DNA from: Bolinopsis microptera
Taxonomy: Eukaryota > Ctenophora > Tentaculata > Lobata > Bolinopsidae
Direction: 5' to 3'
DNA: 60,000 nucleotides
NCBI RefSeq assembly: GCF_026151205.1
Contig: NC_087079.1
Location: 1,950,028 to 2,010,027 of the forward strand
Part shown: one piece after another, positions 3,001 to 50,247 of the stretch
Numbering within the stretch: position 1 is the first letter of the stretch
How the letters are laid out: each line of letters begins with the position of its first letter
The notes under the pieces: model-generated
Seen by the model: the letters and a program-made list of their open reading frames with translations, nothing else
The model's database searches: none
What the model was told of the DNA's origin: nothing
Position numbers and translations under genes: made by a program

Positions 3001-5175
3001 ATGTCCACTGTCGGATCTACAGCTACCACCTTAACATCCGTTACAACCTCTTTTATCACGGTGGGCCCGAAAGATCTCGTCTTTAACCCTTTTAAAGACT
3101 ATGAACAAGATCCAGGTGATGACATTTCAGGTGAAGCTAGCACGACAGTCACAGAGTTCGTCAGTTCTTACTCAGCAAAAGTAGAAATCCTTGACCTATT
3201 GGTCAACCCCAGCTGGAGCAATAGTTCTGCAGCAGACAAAAGCGAGGTATTCACTGACAAGAATTCCGAAGGAGGTTTCACATACGAGGGATTCAAGATA
3301 ACGAGGGCAGTTAGTGTGCCCTGTCTCTTCCTCATGTTGGTGTCATCCATCCTCCTTGTGTACATCATCCTAAAACACCTCAGAGGAATCCTCTATCTCT
3401 ACATCTCCGTTCTCTTCTATGCTTTTACTCAGGTTTGTACAATTATTATGACTATGGTGAAGTTTCAATTTTTTGCAAATTTTTGACATCCTACTTGCCG
3501 GAGTACAGAGTAGATAGCCTCATTAGAGACTTACTGAAACTAAAAAATGAATCATCACATTCACCGCTGACCACAGACTATGTCACTGACTCTTACTGAC
3601 TATGTCACTGACTCCTACTGACTGTGTCACTGACTGTGTCACTGACTATGTCACTGACTATGTCACTGACTCCTACTGACTGTGTCACTGACTGTGTCAC
3701 TGACTGTGTCACTGACTATGTCACTGACTCCTACTGACTGTGTCACTGACTGTGTCACTGACTATGTCACTGACTATGTCACTGACTGTGTCACTGACTG
3801 TGTCACTGACTGTGTCACTGACTATGTCACTGACTATGTCACTGACTATGTCACTGACTCCTACTGACTGTGTCACTGACTATGTCACTGACTGTGTCAG
3901 TGACTGTGTCACTGACTGTGTCACTGACTCCTACTGACTGTGTCACTGACTGTGTCACTGACTATGTCACTGACTATGTCACTGACTATGTCACTGACTA
4001 TGTCACTGACTATGTCACTGACTCCTACTGACTGTGTCACTGACTGTGTCACTGACTATGTCACTGACTCCTACTGACTATGTCACTGACTCCTACTGAC
4101 TATGTCACTGACTATGTCACTGACTATGTCACAGACTATGCCACTGACTATGTCACTGACTATGTCACTGACTATGTCACTGACTGTGTCACTGACTATG
4201 TCACTGACTATGTCACTGACTGTGTCACTGACTGTGTCACTGACTATGTCACTGACTCCTACTGACTATGTCACTGACTGTGTCACTGACTGTGTCACAG
4301 ATTATGTCACTGACTCCTACTGATTGTGTCACTGACTCCCCCTCCCTCTCCAGGTGCTGCTAGTCCTAGTGATGGTTGTCTCATGGTCTTTACGTGACGT
4401 GCCCCAGACCCCCTTCTCCTGCCAGTACTTCGTCACAATCCAGAGTGTGAGTCTCGTGCTCCCTGTCTACGGACTCCTCTTCATCACAGTCGTCAGAACC
4501 ATCTTCCTCAGACGCCCCTTCGACAACGATCTCCTTCTTGAAGCACGGTTCCAGCTTACCGGACTTTGCATTAGTTTGTGTGTATGCGGGGTTGTGTTCT
4601 CGCTTCCTCACCTTGGTGTCTGCGAGATTGACCTCATAAAGCCAGCAGGAGGTACATCCTACTGTGGTTACAGATGGGAGGGTGTGGAGTGTAGAGCGTT
4701 CAAAACTTCAGCACTGATTGTAGGGTACATCCTCCCCGTCCTGTTAGTCCTGGTGCTCTACGCTGTGATCTACAGCACAGTTCTCGTGCTCCGTACCAGG
4801 ACCAGGAAGATGACCCAATCAGTGGGACTGATGAGTGAGTCTTCTGAGAAACAGACGGTCTCCAGAAGCAAGAGCCTGGAATGGGTTGAGAAGATCAGAA
4901 CTTCAATGCCCTGGTGCATTATCATCATATTATTCTTATACATCGTGTCCACTGTTCCCTGGATACCCATGGAACTTTATACTCACAAAGTGACTGCTAT
5001 TTTAGGAAATCGGAATTATTCCACCCTGTTATTTGACATTCTGTATTCAGTGCTGTTGTTGGGATCCGGCTTGTCACCTCTAACCTACTTGGTTACTTCC
5101 AATACACTACGTGGATTGTTTCTCGTAGAGTACAGAAAGCTCAGAGGTTATTCTTGTTGTGAGAGTAATGTTTAA
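3001..5175 (+). CDS. Rhodopsin-like 7TM receptor (orphan GPCR), two exons
   Basis: Predicted plasma-membrane G-protein-coupled receptor of 417 residues. Exon 1 is 3001-3432 (144 codons, donor CAG|GTTTGT); exon 2 is 4354-5175 (acceptor ctctccag|GTG), and the intron is phase 0. The first 100 residues are Ser/Thr- and acid-rich with an N-S-S glycosylation site near residue 74 and no evident signal peptide. TM1 lies at about 104-124 and TM2 spans the splice junction; five more hydrophobic segments follow. TM3 ends in VVRTIFLRRPF, so the DRY arginine is kept but the Asp and Tyr are not. TM6 carries TVPWIP and TM7 SPLTYL in place of NPxxY. A long basic/Ser-rich loop joins TM5 and TM6. The receptor is not close to the three related receptors further along, and no ligand can be inferred. 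An AATAAA lies about 280 nt after the stop. The fold is secure; class A membership is likely. Confidence 0.82.
3573..4335 (+). repeat. 12/10-bp minisatellite filling the receptor intron
   Basis: Units of actgactatgtc and actgactgtgtc (12 bp) are interspersed with a 10-bp unit, actgactcct. The array takes up about 760 of the 921 intron bases and stops a few bases before the polypyrimidine tract of the acceptor. It gives small Val-Thr-Asp repeat open frames in several frames, which are by-products and not genes. Confidence 0.93.
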
Positions 5176-9241: not shown

Positions 9242-10580
9242 ATGTCGCAACAACTTCTACTTGTCACTAAAGTTGCAAGTGTGGATAGTTATGTTCGGAA
9301 GACTTTGCAAAACCGGGATGAGTTTGAGGACGATCCTTTCACGGTTGTTAATTTGTCAGACATTCAAGAGAGATTTGAAGAGTGGAAGAAGGAGTTCCCC
9401 GAGGTTGAGCCTTTCTTCGCAGTAAAGGCACAACACAATGCCAACACTTTGAAACTCTTAGCAGATAATGGTTGTGGTTTTGATGTTGCATCTCTAGGTG
9501 AGTTGGAGAGTGTTGTAGAAGCAGGGGTTCCGGCGGAGAGAATCCTCTATGCACAACCCTACAAACAGCTTTCTCATCTTCTCTACGCCATGGAACGGGA
9601 CATTATATCAGTTTGTGACTCAGTCGACGAGATTGAAAAGATTGGTGAATTATCCGCACGAATGAACCTCAATCCGAGAATCCTGATAAGGATTTTGCCA
9701 GATGATAAAGAGAGTGACTCTCAAGCCAGTCTCTCCACCAAGTTTGGAGCTCCCCTCCGTATACTGGACGACCTCATGAAAGCAGCTACAAACCACAAAG
9801 TAACTGTAGTGGGGATAAGTTTCCATGTTGGAAGCCACTGTCACTCTGCTGAACCGTACCTCAATACTCTCCGTCTCTCCAGAGTGTGGTGGGATAGGGT
9901 GGTGGGAGAGCACGGGGCACAGCTTCAGGTGCTGGATATAGGTGGGGGATACCCGGGGGAGGGTGGCCCTGACTTTAAGATAATGACTGGACAGATCAAC
10001 AGTGGGATAGAGGAGCACTATGGTGATATCAGGAGAGATATCCGGATCATAGCTGAACCTGGCCGGTACATGGTTACGAGTTCGTTGAGTGTTGTAACGA
10101 ATGTGATAGCAGAGAAGGGTAACACATGTGGAGTCTTGGGGTATGTACTGAATACAGGGGGTTTATGGTGGGCTGAGCTACTCAGCGTGGGATAGAAGGG
10201 CTGCTAGAGGCTCTAAACCGTACCGAGTAAGGTTAAATCTTACTAACGGGTCGTGTCATTCTCGTGATCATAGCAGAGGAGAAGACGAGCTGGATAGTGC
10301 AGTTCAGATTAACGGAGCAGAAGATGTTACACCCGAGAGCGATCAGGAGAAGGAACCTGCTAGGATGGTGTTCTGGGGGCCGACTTGTGATAGCTCTGAT
10401 AGACTTATTGATGGGTATCATGTGCCCGGTATTAAAAGAGGTGATTGGATAGTGTTTCCGGACTTGGGTGCATACTGCAGCAATATAATGACTACCTTCA
10501 ACGGATTTGCTCACCCTAAGATGCACTTTGTGCACACAGATATGCATGGAGAAAAGATTGAACAATTCTTTCATCGTTAA
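9242..10580 (+). CDS. ODC1: Ornithine decarboxylase, intronless, one 1-nt frameshift
   Basis: Pyridoxal-phosphate group IV decarboxylase (ornithine to putrescine, first step of polyamine synthesis, cytosolic). About 445 codons if read through one shift, close to the usual 450-460. Visible landmarks: PFFAVKAQ with the PLP lysine at about residue 62, FHVGSH, the phosphate loop GGGYPGEGG, EPGRYM and, near the C terminus, WGPTCDSSDR with the catalytic Cys-Asp. Both PLP Lys and Cys are kept, which favours an enzyme over an antizyme inhibitor. The first frame runs from 9242 and would stop at 10195. Homology moves to the +1 frame at 10161, after a run of five G (10157-10161), and continues without a stop to 10580. 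Removing one G would restore the frame, so this is a sequencing or assembly error, a null allele or a young pseudogene. It has no introns and lies opposite the minus-strand modular gene. A TATA-like ctatttaa lies near 9165. Confidence 0.9.
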
Positions 10581-10905: not shown

Positions 10906-11254
10906 GGCAACTCAGTAGTGTGGCATAACACGGTTAACGCACGGTTAAGGCACGGTTAAGGCACAGTTAAGGCACGGTTAAGGCACGGTTAAGGCACGGT
11001 TAAGGCACAAGGGTTACATAAGGCACGGTTCTTAAGGCACGGTTAACGCACGGTTAACGCACGGTTGGGGAAATATAACCTATAAACATACAAGTGGTTA
11101 ACTAAGGCACATGATCTGAATGTGACGATCTGTAAATTTTACAGTGCGATTCCCGCTATGAATAAATTTTCTAATTGTAAAGCAACAGCCCTGCTTCGTT
11201 TGACCGTCCTATATTTGAAATCCTTATCTCGATTAATGATCTCTTCAGGTAACA
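10906..11254 (-). repeat. Dispersed element with 11-bp tandem units, copy 2 (inverted)
   Basis: Reverse complement of 1-640, with a shorter array of the same 11-bp unit and an almost identical leader at 11086-11254. It separates the decarboxylase from its decayed copy. The small open frame starting at 11122 is inside the element and is not a gene. Confidence 0.85.
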
Positions 11255-18611: not shown

Positions 18612-20231
18612 ATGGAGAGTGGTGACTACACAACTGAATTTATATTCACAACAACCGCTTTCGGTGCTGATCTTTATCCTCTGGATCGTTACGAAACTAT
18701 CTTTCTGATATCTTATGAGCTTCTCTGCACAGCGATGACAATCTTTTTCAATTCCTACCTGATTTTCATCATATACTTTAAGGTAATACCTTTTAATGTT
18801 AACGTTTATTATGACTTCTTGTAGTGACTCAACAGTTCGATCAATTATCGATACATTCTTTATGACGGTTATTTAAAAATTTCAGGTTAAGTTCGAGGGT
18901 CATCCACAATCTATCCCTATATTCACTGCCGCTGTTCTGGGTCTGTTTCACGGATTTGGCTGCAATCTGATGATGACGATATCTCTGATACATGGTGACT
19001 GGGTCGGTCCCATGGACTGGTGTGGGGCTGCAGCCAACATTCACAAGTACATCGTCTACAGCATCATCTACTGCCAAGTTGTAGTTTCCGTCGAGGTGAG
19101 CTGCAATCGAAATCTTTATTTGTAAACCTTCAGACTAATATACACTAATATTTACACTAATATTTAAATGATAATTTAAACAATTTAATGTATTGATTTA
19201 ATCTATTAATTGCTGCCTAACCAGTTTTGTCTGTAGACTGATTTGAATTCAAATATTCCTGTATGCGTTACTGCAATGCCTAACTACTGTCTACTATTAA
19301 TTGCTCCACTTAACTATCCTGAGACATAAGTTTAAAGTAAATTAGCAAGAATTTTCCTTTTAAGGAAGTGGTTTTGGAAAGTTATATTTGTCCCATTCAG
19401 GCTTCCTACATGATCAGTCACCCTCTCGGCTACATAAGAGACAGCACTGAAGCTAAGATGGGAATCTCTGCTGCGACATTCTCAGCTGTCTTCATTACCC
19501 TTCCTGTAACTGTGGCTCAGTTCTTCTTCTTGTTCCCAAGCAATATCAAGACAGTCTATAGTGCTGTACACATTGTAGCATTGATAGAAAACAACAGATA
19601 CTTTTACTATGATGAGTTTATCAAAGTCTGTTACCGATACTTCTTCCCTGATACGATAGACTACAAGCTAATCGTTTACTTCATCAACACTGTTAACGCA
19701 CTAGCAGCATTCCTCATCGGTCTATCTTTCTCTATCATCGCGTTCGTCATCGTCGAGAGCCGATCTCTCAAAAATGACAGCGACAACCTAAAAAGTCCAA
19801 GTTTTTACAAGAAGAGGATAGCCCGGGAGAAGAAGCGGAAGAGGCAGAACTTTAAAATCGCTAGAATGTCCATATTTTCAACATCCTGCGTTATTCTACC
19901 TTGGCTACCAAGCTTAGTAATTAGTATTGTTTTAGAGTCTGTTGGCTACGATTCTATAGTCGGGTCTCTAGGAATAGATTGGGCAACAAACTTATTAAGA
20001 TGGAACCAGTTCCTCTACTACCTAGTGACCTGGTTGTTTCCGCTGATGGTGATAGTAACGAATCCTTCAGTCGCTCGAGCTAATAGATCGGTGTTATTTG
20101 GTAGTTTGCCAGCTTCATATCAACCACCATCAACCTCAATGCCGTCCAGAACCTGTAACCCTGTCCCCAGACCTTTAACAATAACCACACCAGCCCGTAA
20201 GGTGTCAGTATCAGCGTCATTGAAGTGTTGA
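18612..20231 (+). CDS. 7TM receptor A of a three-member family (3 exons)
   Basis: Predicted plasma-membrane GPCR of 403 residues. Exons: 18612-18782 (57 codons, donor AAG|GTAATA), 18886-19095 (70 codons, GAG|GTGAGC) and 19401-20231 (acceptor cattcag|GCT), both introns phase 0. Exon 1 holds a short N terminus and TM1 (with N in FFNSYLIF). Exon 2 holds TM2, extracellular loop 1 with GDWVGPMDWCGAAA (likely the TM3 disulfide Cys) and most of TM3. Exon 3 holds the end of TM3, TM4, loop 2 with CYRYFF, TM5, a Lys/Arg-rich loop, TM6 (ILPWLPSLV) and TM7 ending LFPLMVIVTNP. The DRYxxxxHPL site reads E|ASYMISHPLGY: the Glu is the last residue of exon 2 and the usual Arg is Ala. The C tail is Ser/Thr/Pro-rich. 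Rhodopsin-like by layout; ligand unknown. Confidence 0.85.
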
Positions 20232-23200
20232 GTAGTTGTCAATGTGTCCTAAAAAGTATATGTAAACTTGTACAAAAATAATTGTAGGGATCATTCTCTT
20301 GCACTTTAGAAATTGGAGCTTTTCTGAACACCCTCCCCACATGGCTTACGTAATGTGTGCAAGGTTCCTTGCATCATTAAAATGTTTCACAATCTTAGTT
20401 CATCCTTAACCATTCAACCTCTATCACTAGTCACTAATTTTAATCCAATATCTGAAATCAGCGCAATATATGCTTATATGCTACTTCTATTTCGTTTACC
20501 ATGAAGTCAAAGGTCAAGAAAACAGTTGTCTCATATGATATTAATAGAACATTAATCATCGAGGGTTTTGGTGTCCCTTTAAAGCTTTAAGTTTAAGTAC
20601 CGAGGAAGTGTCTGCACCAGATTATTGCACTACTTAACCCTCTCCCCAGTCCCCTCTCCCAGAGTTGCTTCTGTGTTTGCTGATTCATGACCATTATGTT
20701 GGAGACTGGATGCAATAATTCTTAAGAAGTAATTTCACATTAAAAATGCTGACAAAGCTAAGTCTAACTTTGTACCGCCACATGATAGACACTGACACAG
20801 CTGCTATTAATTATTACAAAAACAATCAGACAAAACAAGTGGCTTATATGTTCAGATGTTAATAAACGCTTACCTATAATACTCCTATAGTTTTCTCAGA
20901 CATTATTATTATGTTCAGATATTCAGTCCCTCTACGTCATTACACCCTGTGAAATTAAAGGTGCACCTTGACAATAACCTTGGATGTTGGACCACTGAGT
21001 TAGGTTTGTGTTGTCCGTTCACTGGCTACAGATTAATTGTTGTATGTTCGGATATAGAACCAATCCACAACTCTGTTAGCTTCTTACCGCTGGAAATGAT
21101 TGGATGGGCTCGATTTATGCAGCTCAATAAAATGGGCTAAAGTTTTATTTTGATTTTGCTAAGGTGCCAAGTTCGCAAGAATATCTTGATGAAGTATTTC
21201 ATTTTAGAAATGGCATACTTTAGCTTTCTGTATTATTGTACTTCATTTCTATTTAGACAAAAATGTATCTTTTTTTTCTTCTTTTAAAATAATTAAAAAA
21301 ATAAAACCATAATTTCATTTTCATGAACGAGGATTAGATAAACTAACATAATACCAAATTTATAAAGATCTGCTCAAAGTTAGAAAGTATATTATTCAAT
21401 AAAAATCTGTCAACAAACCCTGTGAGCTTGAGAGCGTCTTAGAAAGTAGATTTAGTCCCATGAATTTGTCAGAGATAATGTCAGTTTTACACATATCAAC
21501 TTGAGCTTGGGATAATTCAAATTGTATGTTGAGCAGCTTGTTGGATAAGGAGAGCAGAACTGGAATTGTATCATGTGATTGAGAGGTCATGGAGTGAGGG
21601 ATGTTAAATTAAGCTTAATTTTTGTGATTCTTTCTTTTGTGTATCTGTCAGCCAATCTGATTTCCCGAAAAATGCACTAAACCTTTCAAGCATTTCTCAT
21701 TACTTCATTAGTAGTTCGTTAAACATTTTACGCAATTGTGAACAATTTTGATCAATAAATGGTTTCAAAATTTTTGAAAATTTACTAATTATTTAATCAA
21801 TTCATTAGTTTATAATCTTATTGAAAAGTTATTAAAAAAAACTTGTTCACCTTTATTTCTAATTACACTGGTTCAATCTAGAACCTTTTACGACATTTCA
21901 GAAGTTGACTTATTTGCGTAGTATTAAACTTAGACCTGCAATTTCACGTGTACTTTGAGAACTGGTCGGGCATTGAAGGTTTTGGTTAGAGTAACTTACA
22001 ATATTAGATGTATGGCTATTGGTCATTGTCCAAGGCCAGCGGTTGCGTTATATCATTATGCTAGTAAGTACAATCAGTATGGTAATGCAACAGTACCCTA
22101 TAGTCATACAAGTATGTATGATATCGTGCAATAAAAACAGTGTACTCAAATGTGTTTTGTTAATTGTTCGTCCTGACTCCTGATAGTGACCCTAAATTGC
22201 AAGGTCACACTCACATGGCGCTTGACTAGGATCATTTAAAATACAATTTGATATTTTGAAAACCAAGTAACCACTTCGAGAGCTGGAGCCTGAGACCGCT
22301 AATGAGTTGAGATTGCTTGGAGGGATTTTCACGCGAATGAATTGAGAACACTGGGATAGAGCATTTTAAATCGACTGTAGAGGTTAAAGTATCCTGACAA
22401 TAAAATAGATCAAAGATGTGTTAGTCAGTTGAACGTTAAATTATGCAAAAACCATTTAACTAGTTACTAGCTAAATTTTATAAATTAAGTTTCTTTAGGG
22501 AGACAAAGTAAGGAAGCTTGGTGAACCATTTTAAATCTACCGTAAAATTTAAAGTATCCTGAAATTGTTTTAAAATTCAGATACTCACCAGAACCACTCA
22601 ACCACTCTCTTAACCGCATTTTAGTTAACGGGTTTTTCGACATTAAATCATTATTTTCTAATAGAAGCGTAACTTCCATGATCTGGAACATTTCTGATTT
22701 ACCTGAATTCCTTCTGGTGACACATTCTGCTGCTAAATACACTAAATATCTAACTACACACTTTGGGTCGTTCGATAGACAGCTGGGTTGTAATTTGAAG
22801 TAATGGGGCTGTCTTATGAACAGACAATATGAGAGCTAGAAATAAACCTCATTTGACCACTTTAATGTCGTGAAACCGCCATATAATCTTAGTGACATGA
22901 ATTTGGTGAGTTTTTAAAACGTCCCACGACTCTCTAAGAGCTAAGTTGTTGCCATGGTGTTGTTGCCATGATGTGATGATGTCGAGGTTAAGTACCCGTC
23001 GCTGAAGCTGTTGATGAAATTTGATTGTACTTGTAGCAGCTTAATATGATATTTTCAATTTTCATCTTTATTTTTCTGAAGCATTTTAGATTGCTGCCTA
23101 GATGCCTGTGCACAACAGCCTTTTCTGAAATGGCTGATCCCTCTTATTTTTGCTCATCACGTGCCAACGACAAGATACAGACCTGAAACGAGGTAACTAT

Positions 23201-23511
23201 GGCAACGAGGTAAAGCTTTGATTCAAGAATAAAGATTGGAAACATAAGAGAAAGAAACAGCTCGGCTGCTGGTTGACTTCCTTTTTAATCCATTGTAACA
23301 TTTTCCAACGCTCAATTTTAAGACAATAGAGTACCAATACCATTATCGTATTGTTCATAATGATGCCTCAGCATCATCCTCTGCCAGTCTGCCAAGTCGT
23401 CATGTCGTCAAGTCGAGCAAGCTACGATTGCTTCTCCAAGCTCCCATTTGGTAACATAACCTTTAATATAATTTGATTAATTTGTCTCAAATTCATTAAT
23501 TAGAGTAACGT
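20232..23511. other. Intergenic, no gene recognised
   Basis: Contains the downstream copy of the receptor-A direct repeat (20824-21070). Two loosely similar stretches (about 22345-22410 and 22515-22570, sharing aaagtatcctga) suggest an old local duplication. Small open frames here lack recognisable features. Confidence 0.5.
20824..21070 (+). repeat. Direct repeat flanking receptor A, downstream copy
   Basis: Partner of 18196-18405. It lies about 600 bp after the receptor stop. No receptor coding sequence follows it before 27243, so any tandem gene copy has been lost. Confidence 0.65.
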
Positions 23512-23721
23512 GTGATGACATCTTCCTTTCTGTCACGCTTACAAAAGCTTCGTCTGTACAATCATATGTTACTCAGTCTTATTTTAGTAATCTACAGTGG
23601 CACAGTTTTAAGCTCTGGTAATGCAGCTTCAGGAGTAGGAAAGTCAAAAGTTAGAGAGGGGGTTAAAGATGTTGTCACTTTGATACTTTCCTCCCTCAAT
23701 GCCACAAGGAATTTTGTCCAG
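23512..23721 (+). CDS. Possible first exon of a small secreted protein
   Basis: An open frame from ATG 23512 (or the downstream ATG near residue 19) gives a basic lead followed by a hydrophobic stretch, MLLSLILVIYSGTVLSSG, which reads as a signal peptide with small residues at a plausible cleavage site. A Lys-rich stretch and an Asn-Ala-Thr glycosylation site follow. A CAG|GTTATT donor at 23721 would end the exon in phase 0; unspliced, the frame runs to 23790. No partner exon was identified and no family is recognised. This is a weak call based on the signal-like segment alone. Confidence 0.25.
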
Positions 23722-24479
23722 GTTATTCGATCGCTGCTCACGAACAACGCGGATTACTTTTTTATAAGCTGTACTTTTAGTTTTAGATGATAACCGCATT
23801 GTGGTATTGTTTGTATTTTTAGTCCTTTTTCGTTGTCAGTTTCAGAATGGAAGTCACCAAATAATGGCATCATTAAACCGTTCACTAAACGGTTCGTTAC
23901 GAAATTCTATTTCTGGGAAATCGTGGTTATGATATTTGAAACGATTTCACCAGTTACCTATTTATTAGCAAAATCTGTAGACTAGCAGGAAATTTACACA
24001 TAAATTCGAATATTTTACTAAATTCTTTTATAGTTGAAAGTGCATTTACTTAACCTGCAAATTCTCTGGAAGGTTATAATTAGACCAGTACAATGGTGTC
24101 AGATTCTGCCTTCGTAAGCCTGACCCATTTTCGAGTCTGGTACAAATGAAAAATTGTGGTAATTGTGGGTCCTCTGTTAAAGTTGCAAGCTATGACACCT
24201 CCTTTGATGCAGTTACCGTTTAAATGCAGTATCCTTTCCTAAAGCATTTATGCTTAAACTAGACAATGAACGTATTTTAGGTAAGTATAAGGTTAAATGC
24301 AGCTTTGAAATATTAAATTTCGTAGGCAATTAGCCTTAAAAGCCTAAAGCTGGTGTCTCAACGTGTCGTCTGCAACGTTAAATTAGTACCTGGTAAACAT
24401 ATAATTCTATAAGCATATAAAGGCTTTATTATTTACTCTCATTATACGTTTCCTTGTATTTGGATAATCCATATTTATG

Positions 24480-24962
24480 TTTTTTATTATTTTGCGCATG
24501 CCAAATGCTACATGCTACATGAAGAGGTCTCCTCCTAGTCGTTGGAGTGGCCTGCATCTCACACATCTCTTCTACGGCGTAACATGTTCCTCCATTCCAC
24601 TCACTTTAGAGCCAACTGTTTTACTGCATCTCTGCTGATGTTATCGACACCTGTAAATTCAGCCGCATCCTCGAGTACACAGGCCATCCAACATGTTCCT
24701 CCATTCCACTCGCTTTAGAGCCAACTGTTTTACTGCATCTCTGCTGATTTTTATTATTTTGCGCATGCCAAATGCTACATGCTGCATGAAGAGGTCTCCT
24801 CCTAGTAGTTGGAGTGGCCTGCATCACACACATCTCTTCTACGGCGTAACATGTTCCTCCATTCCACTCGCTTTAGAGCCAACTGTTTTACTGCATCTCT
24901 GCTGATGTTATCGACACCTGTAAATAAAAATTCAGCCGCATCCTCGAGTTCACAGGCCATCC
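24480..24962 (-). repeat. Tandemly repeated LINE 3'-end fragments
   Basis: A block of about 240 bp (ttattattttgcgcatgcc ... acaggccatcc) occurs twice, with a third copy of its middle part at about 24687-24748. Read on the minus strand the block encodes LALKRVEWRNMLRRRRDVCD, ending in AGHSN. This is the kind of Trp-Arg, Asp-Ala-Gly-His tail found at the C terminus of RTE- or CR1-like LINE proteins, and it resembles DDRVAWRNKF of the LINE at 38.6 kb. Assignment to a LINE is inference from that short tail. Confidence 0.5.
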
Positions 24963-25887
24963 AGCCAAATATTCAGTTTTATTCATAGTTGAGAATAACG
25001 CACTCCGCGAACTTTAAAAATGAATTATCGAACTCTTACCGAACTTATTAACCGCATTTAAATTCACCAGCAGTTTGCCTTTATTCACCTGTTTTGTGTT
25101 ATAAGTTATTTGTCTCAAACTACCCAACTATGGCTTTATTACACTTATACGAGAACGCAAAAAATTACAAATAAATTGCATTCATATCCAGAATAAGTTT
25201 GTCTTTGCTCGATGCTGATCTAAAACCATTGGAAATTTGTGAGATATTATTATTATGAAAGCGATGATGCAAAGCTGGCATAAATCACAAAGCATGATTA
25301 TCAAATTTTCTGAAAGTAGAGTTGCGAATCAAATCCCATCAAATTAAAACGATATATTTCAATTACCATTATAAAGTCTTGTACCTACTTTTTTGGGCGT
25401 TCCTATGAAATTATAGTAATCGCAATCATAGAGGTGGTTATTGATACAATTATTATATGAGTAATATCTTCATCTCTTGAATATACCTGTCAAGTAGTCA
25501 AGTAGCTAGTATCTTGTAATAAATAAGCTACTGATCGCAAGTCTTAATATGGTCTTGATTTTGTTATGCTCAGTTTCTTATAATCTGATATACTGGTTAC
25601 GGTTATCTAAACTTCTGTACAGATAAGGAGCAATAAGCTATGTTTTGCGTAATAAAGCTGGTTGCTCCTTCATAAAGTAATTTACAGATGTTTAAAACGG
25701 TACCAATGTTTCGTGAACACCCTGTATTTGCTGATATGTCGGTTCTGTATCTGCGGAAATGTTTCATTTCGTTTCTGGTGCTTTAAATCAAAGACAATTG
25801 TTATAATTTGTGTGTAAGTCTGCTCTATATATCAGACGGCCTTAAAATAATTTTAATAGAATCATAATTTAATTCAAATTTATTGAT
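24963..25887. other. AT-rich intergenic, nothing recognised
   Basis: No coding frame, repeat or palindrome that I can support. Confidence 0.5.
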
Positions 25888-25891
25888 ACAT

Positions 25892-27007
25892 AGGGTAAAG
25901 CACATAATTTTGTCATTTTTTGGCAATTTTCCGACTGCCTGATATAAACCATGGGTTTTAACCTCGTCTGAAATTCCGATTTAGATGAAACCTCCACCAT
26001 GTTATAGTAGACAGTCTAGGCAAGTTCTAACACAAAAATGATCGAAATTGCTGGGGTTGAAGATGTTCAAAAAAATTATTTTGAAAAAATGACAAAATTA
26101 GGTGACTTTACTTAATTTTGTCACCCCGAACCTAATTTTGTCACTTGAAGATTGTGCAAAAAGTAACCGTTTCTCGGTATTTTAGACTACCTGGATGCAT
26201 CATTCGAGCGCTTTTTTACCAACATTGACCTCAAAAATCCCAAAGATATGATGTTTTCATAGTTTTGTAGCTTGATGAAAAGATGACACTTTTTGGGTAT
26301 CTAATCTTAGAAAATAGCCCCAAATGCCCCTGAAACCACTGGCATCTTGAAAAACGATTGGTTCTAGGCCTAGGTTGAAATTTTCATGTCTGTATTTTGT
26401 TAGTCATTTTAGATTGAAAAAATCAGATTATCCACCTAATATTTCTCGGCGAAAATATGCTATTATAAGTGTTATAAGTGCCTTATACATATCCTATGGG
26501 CAAAAAAACTTCAGAATAGTTGTATAAGGCCATTTTCAACACAATCTGTGATTTACAAGAAATTTGAGAAAGGTCGATTTTTTTGACAAAATTAGGTACT
26601 TTTGGCAAAATCGAACCTAATTTTGTCACCCTCTGTAACTTAAACAATAATTGCGCTAGAGACTTGAAAATTTGTACGTATACTTCTGCTGTAGAAGATA
26701 TTTGAAATATGCAATGGCATGAAGCTAGCTCAATTACTTTTGAAATAGCAATAAATCAAAATTTTGAAAATTCCTTAAGAAAACCTTAAGGATCTTATTT
26801 ATTTTTCGGGTTAACAGTTTCGCCTTCATTTTTGACACAGATGCAAAAGAGCTAGAAACTTAAACTTTGTACGAGCAGTTTCAGCAAAGTCTAAGCTTTC
26901 TTTATATACACAATCCTTTTCTTTCAAGCTGAAATTCCGAGCCGAGGCAGTTTTTCAGAGCAAAATGACAAAATTAGGTACCCTGACAAAATTATGTGCC
27001 TTACCCT
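25892..27007. mobile_element. Non-autonomous DNA transposon with 27-bp terminal inverted repeats
   Basis: The left end, agggtaaagcacataatttt, continues gtca. The right end is its reverse complement with one change (tgacaaaattatgtgccttaccct). Both ends are flanked by a 4-bp direct repeat, acat, at 25888-25891 and 27008-27011, as expected for a target-site duplication. The 1.1-kb interior has no open frame of interest but repeats the phrases acaaaattaggt and aattttgtcacc many times on both strands, so the terminal motif is reiterated inside. No transposase; it must have been moved in trans. The superfamily is not assigned. Confidence 0.85.
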
Positions 27008-27242
27008 ACATGTCTATTCTATGTTTTAGGTTCGTCACTTATGGGTGAAGTCATCAACAGCCGTTTTGTATCCCTCCGGCCTCCTGGCTCAGGAGTGGCC
27101 TTGCAGAACTAGTAACAATTCGTATGAGCTTTGGGAGTTTATGAGTTTTAATGTTATACTCATTTTATTTACCGACTTGCAAATTATACCATTGTTGCTC
27201 CCATGATTATTGCGCAACCCCCACTAAATTCATGACTAGCTA

Positions 27243-28895
27243 ATGGAAATCTCCCCAAGCATGGATGCCAAAAACTCAACTACATACCTATTTTCAACGA
27301 CCGAAACTCCAGTTTCACCTGGTACTTACATCCTAGAAAGTATGTATCTACTGAATCGATACGAAACAATCTTCCTGACAACCTATGAGATCCTCTGTAC
27401 AGTGATGACGATTTTCTTTAATTATTACCTCCTGTTCCTCATCATCTGCAAGGTAAAATTAGATAATTTATATACAGTAAATAAAATAGTCAGTTGCTGA
27501 ACAGATTAATTTCATAGTTTCTATCGTTGATTTTGGTCAGTTATTTGATTCAGTCCCAACAATTGCCAAAAATGTTGGGGTTAATTTCTCGTCATTCATC
27601 CAAGGGTGAACTGTGAAATGTGAATGATGTACGATAATTCAGGTGAAAGTTGATAACCATCCACAATCAATCCCAATGTTCACTGCCGCTGTTCTGGGTC
27701 TGTTTCACGGATTTGGCTGCAATCTGATGATGACGATATCTCTGATACACGGTGACTGGGTCGGTCCCATGGACTGGTGTGGGGCTGCAGCCAACATTCA
27801 CAAGTACATCGTCTACAGCATCATCTACTGCCAAGTCGTGGTCTCCCTCGAGGTACCAAGATTTTAAATGGTGCCTGACTAATCATTCTTAACAAGATGA
27901 AATGAAATCTCGTAATTTTACGCGATAATAATTCAATATTTGACGTTTGTCACCCTAGATGTTTCAAGTTCCATCCCTCTAACACACATTGATTTTCCCA
28001 GGTGGCGTACATGATAAGTCACCCTCTCGGCTACCTAAGAGACAGTACCGGTGCTCTGATAGCGATGTCTGTTGCCACCTTTACAGCTGTCTTCATAACC
28101 CTACCTGTTACGGTGGCCCAGTTCTTCTTCTTGTTCCCGGACAACATCCAGGAGATGTGGCCCCAGGAGTACGGGAGCTTGATTGTAGCCAAGGACTACA
28201 AGTATTATTACTATGATCAGTTCCTCACGCTGTGCTACCGGTACTTCTTTCCGGGGACGCTTGATTACAGGATTATAGTTTATTTCATCAACACTGTGAA
28301 CGCTGTCGCTGTACTTCTTATAGCCGTCTCCTTCATTGTAATATCTTTTGAGATTATCAAAAGCAGAAATGAGGAAAGAATAACTGTGCAAAGCCCCGAA
28401 GAAAGAAAGAAACGGAACAGACGCCAGAACTTTAAGATTGCCCGAATATCCGTTCTCTCCACCTTCTGTGTAACGTTACCATGGCTACCTAGTTTGGTGA
28501 TCAGCATTATCACGGATTCTCTGGGTTACCAATTTCTCATTGAAACTGTTGGACATGATTCAGCTACGAAGTTACTAAGATGGAATCAGTTCCTCTACTA
28601 TTTAGTCTCCTGGTTATTCCCCCTGATGGTAATCATGACAGACCCTGCTCTTAGCCGAGCGAGCAATAGTTATATCACTGTCAAGGTTACGGATGCTATA
28701 CAATTCAGTAGATTCAATAGTAAGGCTGACTTGCCGAATATTGTTCTGAGTCCGCTAACAGCGCGCTCATTCGTGCAAACCCCGGAATATAGGGTGAACA
28801 TGGTCGCTTTAGGAGCCAAAAAATACAACTTGACTTCATCGCCAGCGGTTTCCAACATTGATACAAATAGTGTGAAAAGCTTTGGTACAGATTAA
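27243..28895 (+). CDS. 7TM receptor B of a three-member family (3 exons)
   Basis: Predicted GPCR of 437 residues, with the same gene structure as receptor A. Exons: 27243-27452 (70 codons, AAG|GTAAAA), 27643-27852 (70 codons, acceptor aattcag, donor GAG|GTACCA) and 28002-28895, phase 0 throughout. A second in-frame ATG at 27261 could also be the start. An Asn-Ser-Thr glycosylation site precedes TM1. Loop 1 reads GDWVGPMDWCGAAA as in receptor A. The DRY position reads E|VAYMISHPLGY, again without Arg. Loop 2 has CYRYFF, TM6 LPWLPSLV and TM7 LFPLMVIMTDP. The C-terminal tail is longer than in A and rich in Ser/Thr. Within exon 2, 27679-27836 differs from receptor A at one base in 158, although exons 1 and 3 are well diverged. 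Confidence 0.86.
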
Positions 28896-35154: not shown

Positions 35155-36345
35155 AATTTTAACAATGGGTCAGGGCTGAACCCTACCCATTAGTACAGGG
35201 AAATCCGTCTGAAAAAATCGATCTGCTGACACACGAAGCTTTCAGAGGATTTTTGACGTTTTTGAGTCCCATTAGGTGCCCTTTATGGCTGACCAACTTT
35301 TCCAAACTTTTCCACGTGGCTTAAGGCCACTTTTTGCCACTTTACCACTTTTTACCACCTTTCTTGTTTGTCGAATATCTTTAGTTGTGAACATCGTAAA
35401 AGGTTGCGAATCAATCGAGTGTGTTCATATTATCAGGAAGAAAAACTTTTGTTCTAACAATTTTTACGTCAGATAATAAGTTAATTGGATAATTATCAAT
35501 TAACCAATTAGCAAAATTCTAAAAATTTTTTATTGGCTAAAAATGGTCGGAATAGCTTAAAACACGGAGAAAAGTAGTTTTTAGAAAAAATTTGAAAATT
35601 TTTCACTTACATTTTTTTTTCGAGACTTCGAAAAATTTCGAAAATTCAAAATATTTTTTTCCGCCAAAAGTGATCAAATTGCATGAAACGCGGAGAAAAA
35701 TGATTTTCAAAAAAAACTTAGTCAATTTTTCGTTTCAAGAATACTTAAATCACCAATATTTGTAGTTGGAGTTTAGTAAATCTCGGCAGATTTTAGTAAT
35801 AATCAGGAATTACTAACTCTAAGTGGAAAGGTCTGAAACTGAAAAACGTTAAGTTTAACCATACGATCGCGATATAAGAGTTTCATAACTAATTACAATA
35901 CAGCCTTATCGATTTTCACAGAAACTGCACCAATGGCACAGTCAAGATCGAAACGATAGCCTGCTGTACTGTCATTTTATTGATTTCAATGATGAATCAG
36001 TGGCGTTAAGATAATCACATTTGTAATAAATAAAACCTCTCTGTACCGTCAATTGTGCTAATCTAAACCGGCCTACCTGTATTACCAGACCTCTTCTTTT
36101 CCTCAACAATCAAACCGAGTTGTTCATATCGCATTTGGTGGGTGATGTAAACTAAGTAGTAATACATATCGAGCTATATTCAATCACAATACGACACAGT
36201 ACGTGTATATTATATGGCTCTTAATGAGGTTTATGAAACGCTTTATACCGTGAGAAACCCGGTATAGAGAGGTTTTACAGTTTATCACGAAAACGTCTAC
36301 TTGGTCTCATGGCCCATTTACAGTTCGAAGAAGGGCAAGAACAGA
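35155..36345 (+). repeat. Left arm of a 3-kb inverted repeat
   Basis: Reverse complement of about 37000-38175. Matches are near-continuous from caattttaacaatg (35155) to ctacttggtctcatgg (36315), with lower similarity to about 36345. Differences include a ~22-bp insertion at 35169-35190 and scattered substitutions and short indels (for example near 35990 and 36215), so the arms are independently evolving copies. The identical 66-residue open frame in each arm has no coding features. Confidence 0.92.
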
Positions 36346-36999: not shown

Positions 37000-38175
37000 T
37001 TTTTGGTCTTTTCTTGCCTTCTTTGAGCTGTCAAAGAGCCATGAGACCAAGTAGACATTTTCGTGATAAACTGTAAAACCTCTCTATACCGGGTTTCTCA
37101 CGGTATAAAGCGTTTCATATACCTCATTAAGGGCCATAATATAATATACACGTACTGTGTCGTATTGTGATTGAATATAGCTCGATATGTATTACTACTT
37201 AGTTTACATCACCCACCAAATGCGATATGAACAACTCGGTTTGATTGTTGAGGAAAAGAAGAGGTCTGGTAATACAGGTAGGCCGGTTTAGATTAGCACA
37301 ATTGACGGTACAGAGAGGTTTTATTTATTACAAATGTGATTATCTTAACGCCACTGATTCAGCATTGAAATCAATAAAATGACAGTACAGCAGGCTATCG
37401 TTTCGATCTTGACTGTGCCATTGGTGCAGTTTCTGTGAAAATCGATAAGGCTGTATTGTAATTAGTTATGAAACTCTTATATCGCGATCGTATGGTTAAA
37501 CTTAACGTTTTTCAGTTTCAGACCTTTCCACTTAGAGTTAGTAATTCCTGATTATTACTAAAATCTGCCGAGATTTACTAAACTCCAACTACAAATATTG
37601 GTGATTTAAGTATTCTTGAAACGAAAAATTGACTAAGTTTTTTTTGAAAATCATTTTTCTCCGCGTTTCATGCAATTTGATCACTTTTGGCGGAAAAAAA
37701 TATTTTGAATTTTCGAAATTTTTCGAAGTCTCGAAAAAAAAATGTAAGTGAAAAATTTTCAAATTTTTTCTAAAAACTACTTTTCTCCGTGTTTTAAGCT
37801 ATTCCGACCATTTTTAGCCAATAAAAAATTTTTAGAATTTTGCTAATTGGTTAATTGATAATTATCCAATTAACTTATTATCTGACGTAAAAATTGTTAG
37901 AACAAAAGTTTTTCTTCCTGATAATATGAACACACTCGATTGATTCGCAACCTTTTACGATGTTCACAACTAAAGATATTCGACAAACAAGAAAGGTGGT
38001 AAAAAGTGGTAAAGTGGCAAAAAGTGGCCTTAAGCCACGTGGAAAAGTTTGGAAAAGTTGGTCAGCCATAAAGGGCACCTAATGGGACTCAAAAACGTCA
38101 AAAATCCTCTGAAAGCTTCGTGTGTCAGCAGATCGATTTTTTCAGACGGATTTCCCTGTACTACATTGTTAAAAT
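37000..38175 (-). repeat. Right arm of a 3-kb inverted repeat
   Basis: Partner of 35155-36345. Outer similarity ends within cattgttaaaat (about 38164-38175). Confidence 0.92.
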
Positions 38176-38560: not shown

Positions 38561-40719
38561 TATTATTAAGAAACTGTTTACACCATTAAAATATTCAAAA
38601 CCCCTAAAAGAAATCAAGTCATCCTAAAATGGTGATCAGTACAGATCAGGACAGCTAGAGTTAAAATTTGTTTCTCCAAGCAACTCTATCATCAGCTAAT
38701 ATCTTAAGCTTATTAAGATCATTCAAAGAGTTAAGTTTCAAACCTCTACGGGTCGAATCATTCACAATAATCTTGAACAAATTCTTACGATGCGCACCGA
38801 CGCGCCCTTTACAGTTTGTTGTGACAGCAAACTTTAACGCTAATGCAGCGGGGGAGACATCAGCACTACGCAAGATATGACCTAGGAGCTTCCACCTTGC
38901 TTTAGGGACACGATCTGATAGCTTTACTGAGTTACATCTTAGGTATAAGTTTGCATTAGATATTGTTCCATGAGGCCAATAAATGTTCAGTAATGATCTA
39001 AGGTGTTTTCTATGGCAAATGTCTAGTTTTTCTAGTGACTTTGCAGTAGGACACCAACTACTGCAATTGTACATGATGATTGATACAATTTGGGCTTCGT
39101 ATACTGCTATCTTTCTGGTAACGGAGATATTCTGCTGAGACCAGATCTTGGTGAACTTATAGAAGGCATTGTTCCCAGCAATGCATCTTCATTTCCACGT
39201 AACATGGTATCATCACGACCAGGGATTGTTTCTCCAACAGGAGCGAGGAAAACATGGGTAAATTCTGTTTTCTCTGTGTTAATGAACAGGTTAAACTCCT
39301 TGAAGACTTCCTTGGCTATTGGTAGGATAGCTTCTAAGGATTCTTTTTCCACGTTCATGAAGTTACAATCATCTGAATACGCTGACTCCAGTGGCATACC
39401 TTCTTTTGAAACAGGGGGATTGGGTATGTGTGGGGGAGATTCTGCTAGTCGATGGCGTAGTTCTATAAGAGCTCCTGCAAGGACAAGAGTGAAAAGCTTG
39501 CCGGAGAGACTGTCACCTTGAAAGGATCCAAGAAGACTCTCGAATACAGCAGATAGTTCTCCTTCCACTCTGACCTTGAGCATGGTGTTGGTTAAGAGGA
39601 GTTTTACTAGCCTGAGGTCGTCGTCTGTGCATCCAGCTTTGACAAGAAGGTCAAGTATTGTCTGGCGTTTGATTGTGTCAAATGCTCGAGACATATCTAT
39701 GCCCATCTTGTGATACTGGAAGTGTTTACGCGTGACAACCGATATCAACATCCGCTCAGCCCACACTAGATCACCACAACTCCTACCATGTTTGTACCCC
39801 GCCTGCGTGCTACCAGTGAAAGCATCAACTTTGTCTTCGATTCTCTTCAGTACAATCATGGATAATATCTTACGAGCACCATTTGATAGACATAGAGGTC
39901 GTAGACTAGTGACAGGACCGGCTGGTTTGCGAGGTTTCGGCAAGGGGGTGATGATGGCTTCACCTTTAACATCAGGAAATGAATTGGTCTCCAATGCGTT
40001 ATTGATGATCTCGGCATATTTTGACCAGAATTTTGTACCAGCATTTTTCAACCACTCGTTGTAGACTTTATCTGGACCAGTGGCTTTGTTGTTCTTGAGA
40101 GATTGGGCGGCTTTTTTTACTTCATCACATGTGATGGGTATGTCTAGGCAGCGTCCATCCCCTATAAATGCTTGAAGTGGTTCATCCTCACACGTGAACT
40201 GCTTTTCGTAGTAGTCTCTGATCACTTGAGCTTTACCAGCATCTGTGGCAACAAAGTTACCTTCTTCATTGTGGACACTGATAGTAGATTTGGGCTTAGT
40301 GTCAGCTAGAGTACGCACAGCTTCAAACATCTGCCTTGTGTCATCTGTTGACATGATGGTTCGAGCGATGTCATCGGCACGTGTGTCAGCAAGGTTCTTG
40401 AGATGCTTACGGATGTCTTTCTGTAACCTGTTGATCCTTGTACGGACTTGAGTTCTGTCGGCAGCTTGGTTGTTACAGTTAAGTGCAGCTTGCAGGGTTT
40501 GTCTCTCTTTTACAAGGGCTTCAACAGTAGAGTCACTACTGAAGTTACGGTTTCTGGAGCGTGGTAGGGTCCCGATTACTTCATCAGCAGTTGTTTTGAG
40601 GACATCCATCAGGTTAGTGAGATCATCATTAGGGTTTGATGTTACCTGAGAGTTGTTGACTTTCTGTTCGACTGAAAGTTGGTATTTGACTTTGGTGGGA
40701 AGGTCAGTGGTGAGCAGGG
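38561..40719 (-). mobile_element. 5'-truncated LINE (non-LTR retrotransposon) insertion
   Basis: The insertion is bounded by a perfect 12-bp direct repeat, aattgtagtact, at 38549-38560 and 40720-40731. On the minus strand its 3' end terminates in cttaataata with no long poly(A), and its 5' end starts inside the reverse-transcriptase reading frame, so no endonuclease region is present. Removing it rejoins the interrupted 70-bp tandem unit. The clade is not certain; the tail and C terminus resemble RTE/CR1-type LINEs. Confidence 0.93.
38661..40719 (-). pseudogene. LINE reverse transcriptase, 5'-truncated and frameshifted
   Basis: Open reading from the truncation point (about 40719) through 39107 covers the reverse-transcriptase domain. 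Motifs: IDMSRAFDT (motif A with catalytic Asp), SFQGDSLSGKLF (motif B) and YSDDCNF (motif C, YSDD in place of YADD), preceded by KNNKATGPDKV and LPKPRKPAG. Homology leaves this frame by a 1-nt shift at about 39165-39175 and continues in the other frame through MYNCSSW, RWKLLGHILR and the end DDRVAWRNKF at 38661. The missing N-terminal endonuclease and the frameshift make it inactive. The protein would act in target-primed reverse transcription. Confidence 0.92.
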
Positions 40720-45303: not shown

Positions 45304-46974
45304 TGTGATATTATTTTACAACCGACAGATTGGCAGCACATGACAAGTTATTTATCAGTTTACTTCGCCGCCAAGTTATCAAGTTGACAGATGCATATGA
45401 GAATTGATAAATCATTCCATCAACTTGACCAAATTTGGATTTATGTGATAGGACACAGTTATAGGAAGTCAAGTAGCTGTGGTTAAACCTCTTTAAATTA
45501 AGTAGGTTCAATTATAATTTACGTTCGCGTTTTCGGATTTCGAATCATTATATCAAGCAACTGCTCGTCAATGTTGGTCTTATGATACGAGTATAGTTTT
45601 ATATGTTAGTTCTTTGAAATCGGCGTAAGGTACCTACATAATATTGTGTACATGATCACCAATCTTTACTGGTTTATCTTGGGGCGACTGCGGCTGAATA
45701 CCATCATTACTTAATGAATTCATTCGATTTCGTATCAAAACATCAGCTGAAGCTGATCATAAAAATTACAATATTGAATACTCTCCCTCAGATATGCTAA
45801 TCACCTACTCTGCAACAAGCGCCAGTCATCCTTCTCTTATAATTGTAAAAACGTTCACGAGGGTAATTCTAGAATTATTATAGATCTTGAACTGTCAGGA
45901 AACTAGGCGTTAGACATTATAGCCTTGTACTCTTGTAAGGTATTAGTTTAACTCAATTACAGTCGTGTAATGGAACGTTTATATTATGTCGTTATATACC
46001 ACGCTGTTGTATTATAATCCAACCTGAGAGTTAAAACTGAAAATTTGCCTGTTTTTCCGACAAATCATAATAGAAAAATCGTTTTCGTTACATTATAATC
46101 GATCTTTCAAGAGCCAGTGTCTTTTTACTTGATGTGAAAATATGATGTTTAAAACAATGTTTTAAAATAATATTGACTAATAATCGCTGAGTTGAAATGT
46201 AATCGGTTCTGATCAATTTTGATTTTTTAACCGTTTATCGCAGTTTCCATCAGATCATTTGCTATGTTCCACCCTCTCTAGTTATGCAAAACGTCTGAAG
46301 TTGGTCTCATGTTGACGGTTATCTGAAAAAACTTACTATTTCATCATTGTCACGGGCTAATTACTGTAAATGTTATTGCATCACCGTACGTCGTCAAACA
46401 TAATCCGATTTTGGCTCATGACTGGGACTATATTGCTGGGACTAGGTATATTGCTGTCACTGATCCTATACATTGCTATAGTCAGTACGATTTTAGGGAT
46501 TGTTCACATGTTACGTTACAAAATTGCCATTTAATACCCCTTTTCATAAGCCACTTTATAGCTACATATAATAGTGTATAAATCAAAATAACGTAAGCTT
46601 TTCATTTTTCAAAACCCCTTCCCCTCAAAACCCCCTCCCTACATTACGTAATATGTGACTGATCTCAAAGAAGTACTTGTTAGTATGTGTGCTCCCGGAA
46701 TGTTGACCGGAATGTCCCGGAATGCTGACTCGTCTACCCAGTCCACTCTCCCTGCACTAACAAAGAAACAGTCCCATGTTTCGAAATGTTGCTATTTCAT
46801 CATTCTGATCGCTGGCTGTTGTAGTAGCTTCATATAGTCAAATATGCAGAGTGTGTAAAATTCTCCCGGTACACGCACAGCTACACGTAACTTTGATCCT
46901 CCCGGATGTAATATGATTAAACAGTTTTAATGAGACTATCCTCTCTCATTGAGACTCTCTGTTGCTATAGTTAC

Positions 46975-48590
46975 AGACTGCTCAACATCAGAAAGATACT
47001 CCACCTCTCTCTCCTCATCAGAAAGATACTCCAACTCTCTCATTGCTCAACATCAGAAAGATACTCCAACTCTCTCATTGCTCAACATCAGAAAGATACT
47101 CCACCTCTCTCTCCTCATCAGAAAGATACTCCAACTCTCTCATTGCTCAACATCAGAAAGATACTCCAACTCTCTCATTGCTCAACATCAGAAAGATACT
47201 CCACCTCTCTCTGCTCCTCTCTGCTCCTCTCTCATTGCTCAACATCAGAAAGATACTCCAACTCTCTCATTGCTCAACATCAGAAAGATACTCCAACTCT
47301 CTCATTGCTCAACATCAGAAAGATACTCCACCTCTCTCTGCTCCTCTCTGCTCCTCTCTCATTGCTCAACATCAGAAAGATACTCCAACTCTCTCATTGC
47401 TCAACATCAGAAAGATACTCCAACTCTCTCATTGCTCAACATCAGAAAGATACTCCACCTCTCTCTGCTCCTCTCTGCTCCTCTCTCATTGCTCAACATC
47501 AGAACGATACTCCAACTCTCTCATTGCTCAACATCAGAAAGATACTCCAACTCTCTCATTGCTCAACATCAGAAAGATACTCCACCTCTCTCTGCTCCTC
47601 TCTGCTCCTCTCTCATTGCTCAACATCAGAAAGATACTCCAACTCTCTCATTGCTCAACATCAGAAAGATACTCCACCTCTCTCTGCTCCTCTCTGCTCC
47701 TCTCTCATTGCTCAACATCAGAAAGATACTCCAACTCTCTCATTGCTCAACATCAGAAAGATACTCCAACTCTCTCATTGCTCAACATCAGAAAGATACT
47801 CCACCTCGCTTCAAGCTCAACATCAGAAAGATACTCCACCTCTCTCATTGCTCAACATCAGAAAGATACTCCACCTCTCTCTGCTCCTCTCTCATTGCTC
47901 AACATCAGAAAGATACTCCACCTCTCTCATTGCTCAACATCAGAAAGATACTCCACCTCTCTCATTGCTCAACATCAGAAAGATACTCCACCTCTCTCAT
48001 TGCTCAACATCAGAAAGATACTCCACCTCTCTCTGCTCCTCTCTGCTCCTCTCTCATTGCTCAACATCAGAAAGATACTCCACCTCTCTCATTGCTCAAC
48101 ATCAGAAAGATACTCCACCTCTCTCATTGCTCAACATCAGAAAGATACTCCACCTCTCTCATTGCTCAACATCAGAAAGATACTCCACCTCTCTCATTGC
48201 TCAACATCAGAAAGATACTCCACCTCTCTCATTGCTCAACATCAGAAAGATACTCCACCTCTCTCATTGCTCAACATCAGAAAGATACTCCACCTCTCTC
48301 ATTGCTCAACATCAGAAAGATACTCCACCTCTCTCATTGCTCAACATCAGAAAGATACTCCACCTCTCTCATTGCTCAACATCAGAAAGATACTCCACCT
48401 CTCTCATTGCTCAACATCAGAAAGATACTCCACCTCTCTCATTGCTCAACATCAGAAAGATACTCCACCTCTCTCATTGCTCAACATCAGAAAGATACTC
48501 CACCTCTCTCATTGCTCAACATCAGAAAGATACTCCACCTCTCTCATTGCTCAACATCAGAAAGATACTCCAACTCGCTTCAAGCTCATT
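46975..48590 (+). repeat. 35-bp minisatellite with higher-order structure, open in three frames
   Basis: Unit: attgctcaacatcagaaaga, tactccacctctctc. About 44 units. To roughly 47800, units ending ccaactctctc and ccacctctctc alternate and every third or so is followed by a 22-bp insert, tgctcctctctgctcctctctc, giving a higher-order period. After 47900 the units are nearly uniform. As 35 is not a multiple of three and the unit lacks stops in every forward frame, all three frames stay open for more than 500 codons and encode the same 35-residue repeat. No homology, splice or codon evidence supports translation. The flanks share gttgctatagttacagactg at about 46961 and 48737. Confidence 0.95.
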
Positions 48591-50247
48591 GTTTTATAAC
48601 GTCACCGTGTAGACTGTGGTATGTAGTCCACATTCCTACAAACTTGCTATGTTAAGACGTACACGATCTGTAATTTCTACGTAAACACAGCTGAGTTTCC
48701 CAATACTAAATATTACAGATAGGTACTGCTGTCTGGTTGCTATAGTTACAGACTGCTCTCTGGTTGCTACAGTTACAGACTCCTTATAGCCCCTCATCGC
48801 GGTCCTGTGCGTTCAGTGGTCTTGTATTGTACTAATACGACTTCAGTTAAACTACTCTTTTTGTTAATCCTGAGCTGATAATTTTCATGTGGCCAACGTT
48901 TGAGTGTGATTAAATTGTTGTGAGGAAACTTTGGAATTTTTCTTTAATCCACTTATTTGATGACAGTCACTTTTCTCCGTTATTACTATACTATTATAGA
49001 CTTGCGCAATACAGTTACACAGCTTATACCAACTCAAATTCTGAACTCGAGTCCACCGTTTAGTATGCACTCTAGCTAACCCCCATTTATGATAAGATGA
49101 TATAACTATCAATATCATATTGGTTTTTATTGCCCATCTTGCTATATTCAGAATCATACCCTCATATCAATATTATATTCTTGAGATAAAGGCTGATTTC
49201 TCTATATTTTATAGATCTTGAAAACTTGCCGCATCGTCAGCTGCAGTCTGTTGAAACCCTCACCTATAGAGCGGCTATAATTGTCGATATAACAGATCGG
49301 TATTACTATATATCGATCTATTTCTAACCTCTCATCATGCTGCGATCAGACAGACTAGATGAATAAGAACAGCTGTGGTGTAAATATGGAAGTTGTTATA
49401 GGACGTGTCGTACGTGTCATGTTGCTAGCTATCTCGTACCATGATGTTAAGTTTTTACGAGCTAGCTATTTTATATTTCCATTTTTACGGCTGGTTACAT
49501 GTAGTGTCACTACCTGGTGTCACTTTAATACTGGTGTTTCGGACACAGTAGCCCGGTAGGTTTCGCAATGCTGAAGGGCATCATCCTTTCAATTTTTAAC
49601 ATTTCCCGTGGTACTGGCAAATAGATATTATAGTATTTAACTTTAAGAGTATAATGGTAAGAGCACTTCATAGCTGCCTGCCTGCCTACCTACCTAGGTC
49701 GATCCAGATGAATAAGTCTGGAACGAGTTTCGTGACAGCGCTTCTCTCCAGTTATCTCTGTCAAACATAAACAAACGTTTAACTTATCAGGTTCCAATCT
49801 AGTATAGTCTTCTTGTCATAGCCAAGTGACTACAAGTATACAATACATAGCTATATATATATAGTTAAACTCAGTTTTCTGCTCTAAAGTGAGTTTACCT
49901 GATAGATTAGGTGGCTGAGGGCTCGAATATCTCCCGTACTAGACATTGTAGACATGTCTGGTGGTGATGAGGCTAATATCAATATTGAGTAGGTACATGA
50001 TACCGAATCTGGTGGTTCATGGTAAAATCGACCGTTGAGTAACCGGTCACCGCACATAGCGTAGTTGGCCTGTATACACGGTAAAACCGACATTTACAAC
50101 TTGTTTTACGTTTTTCTGCTCGATCTGAATAACGCACAGTTCTCGAGTAGTATGTTGAACTGATATTATTATTGGAATCGATTCCAAGGTTGTCCAGGAA
50201 TTAGGACTAGTTAATCTTACTATATATAACGCGAGACGATAGTCGCT

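Follow-up and report, generated by a model that had tools for sequence, protein, structure and literature searches.

How do two neighbouring genes whose silent sites are close to saturation over most of their length come to share part of one exon almost base for base? The question is raised by two of three similar genes, here called receptors A, B and C, in a 60,000-nucleotide stretch of the genome of the ctenophore Bolinopsis microptera (the window), which has a GC content of 0.384 and lies within an 18.5-Mb contig of a 264.65-Mb genome.

Receptors A, B and C and their family

The three genes have the same build, with three exons each and introns that are all in phase 0 and bounded by GT and AG. 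In what follows, pS is the Nei-Gojobori silent divergence, calculated per exon, and the exon 2 core is the 53 codons at 18922-19080 of receptor A, which extend one base beyond the 158-bp tract shared with B and thereby add a second difference. The exons and the two copies of the tract are:

18612-18782, forward strand: receptor A exon 1, open frame with a GT donor; by eye, the N-terminus and first hydrophobic stretch
18886-19095, forward strand: receptor A exon 2, 210 nt, phase 0, bounded by AG and GT; by eye, approximately TM2, loop and TM3
18922-19079, forward strand: putative conversion tract in A, 157 of 158 bases as in B, with the mismatch at 18993 (permutation tests)
19401-20231, forward strand: receptor A exon 3, almost saturated at silent sites relative to B
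27243-27452, forward strand: receptor B exon 1 (gene model)
27643-27852, forward strand: receptor B exon 2 (gene model)
27679-27836, forward strand: putative conversion tract in B, partner of 18922-19079 (alignment; permutation tests)
28002-28895, forward strand: receptor B exon 3 (gene model; pS)
57655-57846, forward strand: receptor C exon 1 (gene model)
57971-58180, forward strand: receptor C exon 2, whose core shares 90% identity with each of A and B (pS 0.23); probably involved in an exchange of older date
58355-59158, forward strand: receptor C exon 3, almost saturated at silent sites relative to both A and B

From exon 2 to exon 2, A and B are about 9 kb apart; C lies about 30 kb from B and about 39 kb from A, with a gap of 28.8 kb between the end of gene B and the start of gene C. 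The window also holds a number of other elements. A 1025-nt inverted repeat (35191-36215 and 37139-38163), with arms 100% complementary and 923 nt between them, looks like a young, high-copy fold-back element: a 510-nt query from its arm gave 1398 candidate places in the genome, and the 40 that were scored were 98-100% identical, often in opposed pairs. A 500-aa open reading frame on the reverse strand (39107-40609) contains a reverse transcriptase domain (RVT_1, E 7.7e-19) and is probably part of a retroelement. A long array with a 35-base spacing occupies 46930-48655, where the three forward frames are each open for more than 500 codons. Finally, 1-629 and 10906-11254 carry several inverted repeat arms, 98-99% complementary and about 10 kb apart, and between them is an open reading frame (9242-10195) that matches Orn_Arg_deC_N.

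Searching the genome with the DNA of the core recovered A, B, C, a fourth gene, D, on contig C4, and one further place, on contig C94. Whole-genome protein searches, one using exon 2 at E <= 0.1 and the other exon 3 of A at E <= 0.01, returned an identical set of five genes, namely A to D and receptor E on contig C2, and our comparison took in all family genes found, within the sensitivity of that search. D and E are on contigs other than that of A, B and C, and are thus unlinked to them. The C94 place (L005) is 84% identical to D (L004), with 250 gaps in 2105 alignment columns; we treated it as a copy of D with many errors, which may represent an unpolished alternative haplotype, and for this reason left it out of all codon counts.

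Judging from sequence, the five genes appear GPCR-like. At E <= 1, a profile of A-E gave weak matches to six PDB sequences, the best with an E of 0.086, and all six are class A GPCRs. Neither A nor C, the two of the five that were scanned, gave a Pfam match, 7tm_1 included, at E <= 0.1. The structure predicted for exon 3 of A only (with B and C) has long helices and a mean pLDDT of 51.5, too poor for a fold search. By eye, exon 2 codes roughly for TM2-TM3. Besides the genes found by exon 2 and by exon 3 of A, the window contains a further rhodopsin-like receptor, a forward-strand open reading frame at 4354-5175 that matches 7tm_1 (E 1.6e-9) and did not come up in the searches with either of the two exons.

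The A-B tract in exon 2

Exon 2 of A and B contains two exact runs, of 71 and 86 bases, on either side of a single mismatch at exon position 108 (18993 in A, 27750 in B), and the 158-bp tract so formed leaves 36 bases of the exon before it and 16 after it. For A-B, pS reaches 0.739 in exon 1, 0.753 in exon 3 and 0.667 in the 17 codons of the two exon 2 edges taken together; the core, at 0.058 (2.0 of 34.7 silent sites), is free of amino acid differences. The same pattern is seen at four-fold sites, of which 1/23 differ in the core against 36/59 in exon 3, and among degenerate codons for the same amino acid, which are identical in 14/29 cases in exon 1, 52/60 in exon 2 and 62/140 in exon 3 (exon 2 against exon 3, Fisher P = 1.1e-8). 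A preliminary description of the locus had reported segments that differ at one position, set among exons 1 and 3 and an exon 2 start that are diverged at synonymous sites as well; silent divergence by exon, the check it proposed, bears this out: it is close to saturation in both outer exons and close to zero in the core. Silent identity between A and B is also higher over the opening 51 codons of exon 3 than over the rest of that exon (24/37 against 38/103, P = 0.004), but an equivalent rise occurs in A-D (P = 0.010) and B-D (P = 0.012), so it is not specific to A and B; it is absent in A-C (P = 0.076) and B-C (P = 1.0).

The near-identity very probably reflects a short and recent interlocus gene conversion between A and B, which are themselves old tandem paralogues. 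On this account some 158 bp of exon 2 would recently have been copied non-reciprocally, one gene from the other. GENECONV-type permutation tests with other family members, the second check suggested in the preliminary description, were run with custom scripts and not with the GENECONV program, and they place the A-B tract in exon 2: shuffling over ordered silent codons gave 0/20000 for the run test and 0/20000 for the segment test, both uncorrected for the six pairs of A-D. The strict version of the run test, which takes only the 89 codons with silent polymorphism among A-D, yields an A-B run of 13 with a global P of 145/50000, and a sum-of-squares version over all pairs yields 129/50000. When codons are shuffled within exon 2 alone, the segment test returns 23/50000, which indicates that the tract edges are sharp; the longest-run test within exon 2 alone is not significant (4150/50000). 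If the core rate of A-D is taken as baseline, a core as similar as that of A and B (at most 2 differences of 35) has a probability of 6.3e-10, and the A-C core one of 1.1e-4. This baseline assumes that the A-D split is about as old as that of A and B, and exon 3 (A-D against A-B: pS 0.763 against 0.753, dN 0.435 against 0.377) suggests that A-B may be somewhat the younger.

Could the protein account for the pattern? Exon 2 does encode the most conserved protein segment, ranking first among the exons in 10/10 pairs of A-E, so constraint on the protein combined with codon bias might be expected to keep it similar. However, core pS is 0.058 for A-B and 0.551 for A-D while exon 3 is similarly saturated in the two pairs (0.753 and 0.763), and the comparison of A with E disfavours this explanation too; we give it a negligible probability. 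This agrees with the earlier view that protein constraint alone should not freeze third positions.

That the near-identity is limited to one exon might instead suggest that exon 2 was recently duplicated or shuffled as a unit, with exchange through the introns. Against this, the tract starts and stops within the exon, and its edges are as diverged as stated above. Furthermore, the flanking introns are unalignable (no A-B alignment at E <= 1e-3) and of different lengths, 103 and 305 nt in A against 190 and 149 nt in B, and blastn alignments of A with B reach at most 4 bases into any intron. Exon shuffling is thus very improbable. We think it similarly far-fetched that misassembly or polishing wrote one exon 2 over the other. 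The assembly does contain an error-rich contig, that of the D copy on C94, but both copies of the tract have unique flanks on either side, intact reading frames and one retained difference, and 158 bp would be far below the length of long reads, if such reads were used.

GC content at third positions (GC3) is 0.62 and 0.66 in the cores of A and B, 0.55 in that of C, 0.47 in that of D and 0.51 in that of E, and 0.48 and 0.53 in exon 3 of A and B, a pattern that would fit GC-biased conversion.

Receptors C, D and E in exon 2

The preliminary description had also noted that C is unusually close in this segment, at a distance of 29 kb; this distance corresponds to the gap between genes B and C, and the closeness is confirmed by a core pS of 0.23 to A and to B. 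Identical degenerate codons for the same amino acid are frequent in exon 2 relative to exon 3 in A-C (40/48 against 47/103) and B-C (42/49 against 46/113), and also in A-D (32/52 against 54/122; Fisher P 0.047), B-D (30/51 against 43/115; 0.012) and C-D (29/45 against 42/100; 0.019). The A-D core pS of 0.551 (19/34.5) likewise compares with 0.763 in exon 3 (P 0.0035). None of the four pairs that include E has a clear excess, with 10-13 of 32-33 identical in exon 2 against 24-28 of 69-76 in exon 3; A-E, at 12/33 against 24/74, is at background. Silent identity in exon 2 thus falls from A-B through C and D to E, an order that matches that of distance and linkage.

Is C a participant in conversion? 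The looser run and segment tests gave 63 and 73 of 20000 for A-C and 62 and 0 of 20000 for B-C, and none of the three D pairs was significant in them (20000 shuffles). In the strict test neither A-C (pairwise 6489/50000) nor B-C (11643/50000) is significant, and A-B alone survives. Among amino-acid-invariant codons of exon 2, C is closer than D to A or B by 11 to 3 with either as reference (P 0.057), compared with 15 to 11 and 17 to 13 in exon 3, a difference that is suggestive only. We consider it somewhat more probable than otherwise that C shared in an older exchange of the exon 2 segment. Of the recurrent ectopic conversion proposed earlier, then, the A-B event is supported (0/20000; strict 145/50000), and recurrence is so in part, the evidence from C being suggestive and its strict test not significant.

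For D there are two readings: either it too shared in an older exchange, or silent change in exon 2 is mildly slower. Its somewhat low exon 2 silent divergence means that the effect is in part shared by a gene that is not linked, and A-B conversion does not explain the small excess of silent identity with D. E, which has no excess, is a more distant relative and may be too old to tell. Silent identity equal to that of A and B was nonetheless not found in the unlinked paralogues, D having a pS of 0.55 with a mild excess and E being at background. As D is only partly similar and E has no silent excess, a family-wide silent constraint does not explain A and B.

These comparisons also bear on the overlapping nucleotide-level function offered in the preliminary description, under which an antisense gene, RNA structure, or splicing or enhancer code would freeze the silent sites of exon 2. 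Consistent with such a function, 25/43 amino-acid-invariant degenerate codons in exon 2 are the same across A-D, against 14/72 in exon 3, and the mild excess extends to the unlinked D. It does not extend to E, however, and core pS is 0.06 in A-B but 0.55 in A-D. Moreover, no antisense frame is stop-free across all of A-E, exon 2 of A, the sole exon folded, folds no better than its shuffles (z 1.47 and -0.23 on the two strands), and the window has no Rfam match at the gathering threshold. With no support from these three sources, we regard this explanation as unlikely.

Two tree-based approaches were less informative. Branch lengths of the core and of exons 1 and 3 are non-proportional (P 2.4e-5; for whole exon 2 only 0.012), and remain so without A (0.00051) or without B (0.0016), so the test does not single out the A-B event and points to something beyond this pair. 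We weigh this test lightly, because its control, exon 1 against exon 3, gave 0.026, and subsets with one of the pair gave 0.0042 (A-D-E alone) and 0.038 (B-D-E). When 15 topologies of A-E were compared, exon 2 and the other two exons did not disagree significantly, and topologies are for that reason not used as evidence; the best trees join A and B as sisters for exons 1 and 3 (protein and DNA) and for the core, but not for whole exon 2.

Mechanism, known systems and consequences

Conversion between A and B could have come about by repair of a break with the neighbouring gene as template. Nucleotide identity across the six pairs of A-D is 0.805-0.987 in the core; exon 3 has 0.497-0.600 and exon 1 has 0.435-0.626, and A and B are near 60% identical in these two exons. 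The A-D core identity of 0.830 serves as a proxy for the state before conversion. Protein constraint would keep nucleotide identity in the exon 2 core from falling below 80% in all A-D pairs, strand pairing and extension would be possible only there, and every conversion would ease the next. The core would then be the only recombination-competent segment, which would be why one exon, and only part of one, is affected. According to a review (PMC3924818), conversion occurs mainly above 80% identity but is also possible below it, its rate may fall with distance, and most estimates of mean tract length are from 50 to several hundred bp. The length, spacing and identity of the A-B tract are consistent with these statements. 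In a wider version of the same process, conversion would have used exon 2 repeatedly and homogenised A, B and C and, between chromosomes, D at different times, which would leave the TM2-TM3 core in concerted evolution and the rest of each receptor to diverge on its own; this is a tentative proposal that we consider rather doubtful.

Interlocus gene conversion is a known process, and A-B is a clean example of it, not a surprising one. The tandem opsins LWSa and LWSb of medaka, for which a conversion tract and at least two events were inferred, are likewise neighbouring GPCR paralogues with a near-identical tract that starts within exon 2 and is preceded by a more diverged part; in that study (PMC6389941), their tract takes in introns as well as exons, from the 3' half of exon 2 as far as exon 6, and the O. 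latipes genes differ by only seven coding substitutions. In A and B, by contrast, about 158 bp inside one exon are involved, and silent sites elsewhere are near saturation. Clustered protocadherins (PMC4978886) resemble A and B in that low dS is confined to part of the protein while other domains diverge, but they comprise tens of clustered genes, whereas here two or three genes and a short exon are concerned. In another ctenophore, Mnemiopsis, tandem paralogous photoprotein genes have GENECONV evidence for concerted evolution, from the same kind of test; they belong to another family with highly conserved sequence, and dS is below 1 in the pairs shown (PMC3570280). Among the matches listed for ctenophores with gene conversion and for ctenophores with GPCRs, no title names this receptor family, although a prior description is still possible.

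The A-B pair is a sharp case of conversion limited to what would be the sole recombination-competent segment of otherwise near-saturated paralogues. One practical consequence is that trees or dates drawn from exon 2 of these receptors would mislead. If exon 2 does correspond approximately to TM2-TM3, these would be receptors with a common core and a diverged N-terminus and TM4-7. And if C and D did take part, this small and partly dispersed set of receptor genes would be a case of concerted evolution that recurs in a single exon.
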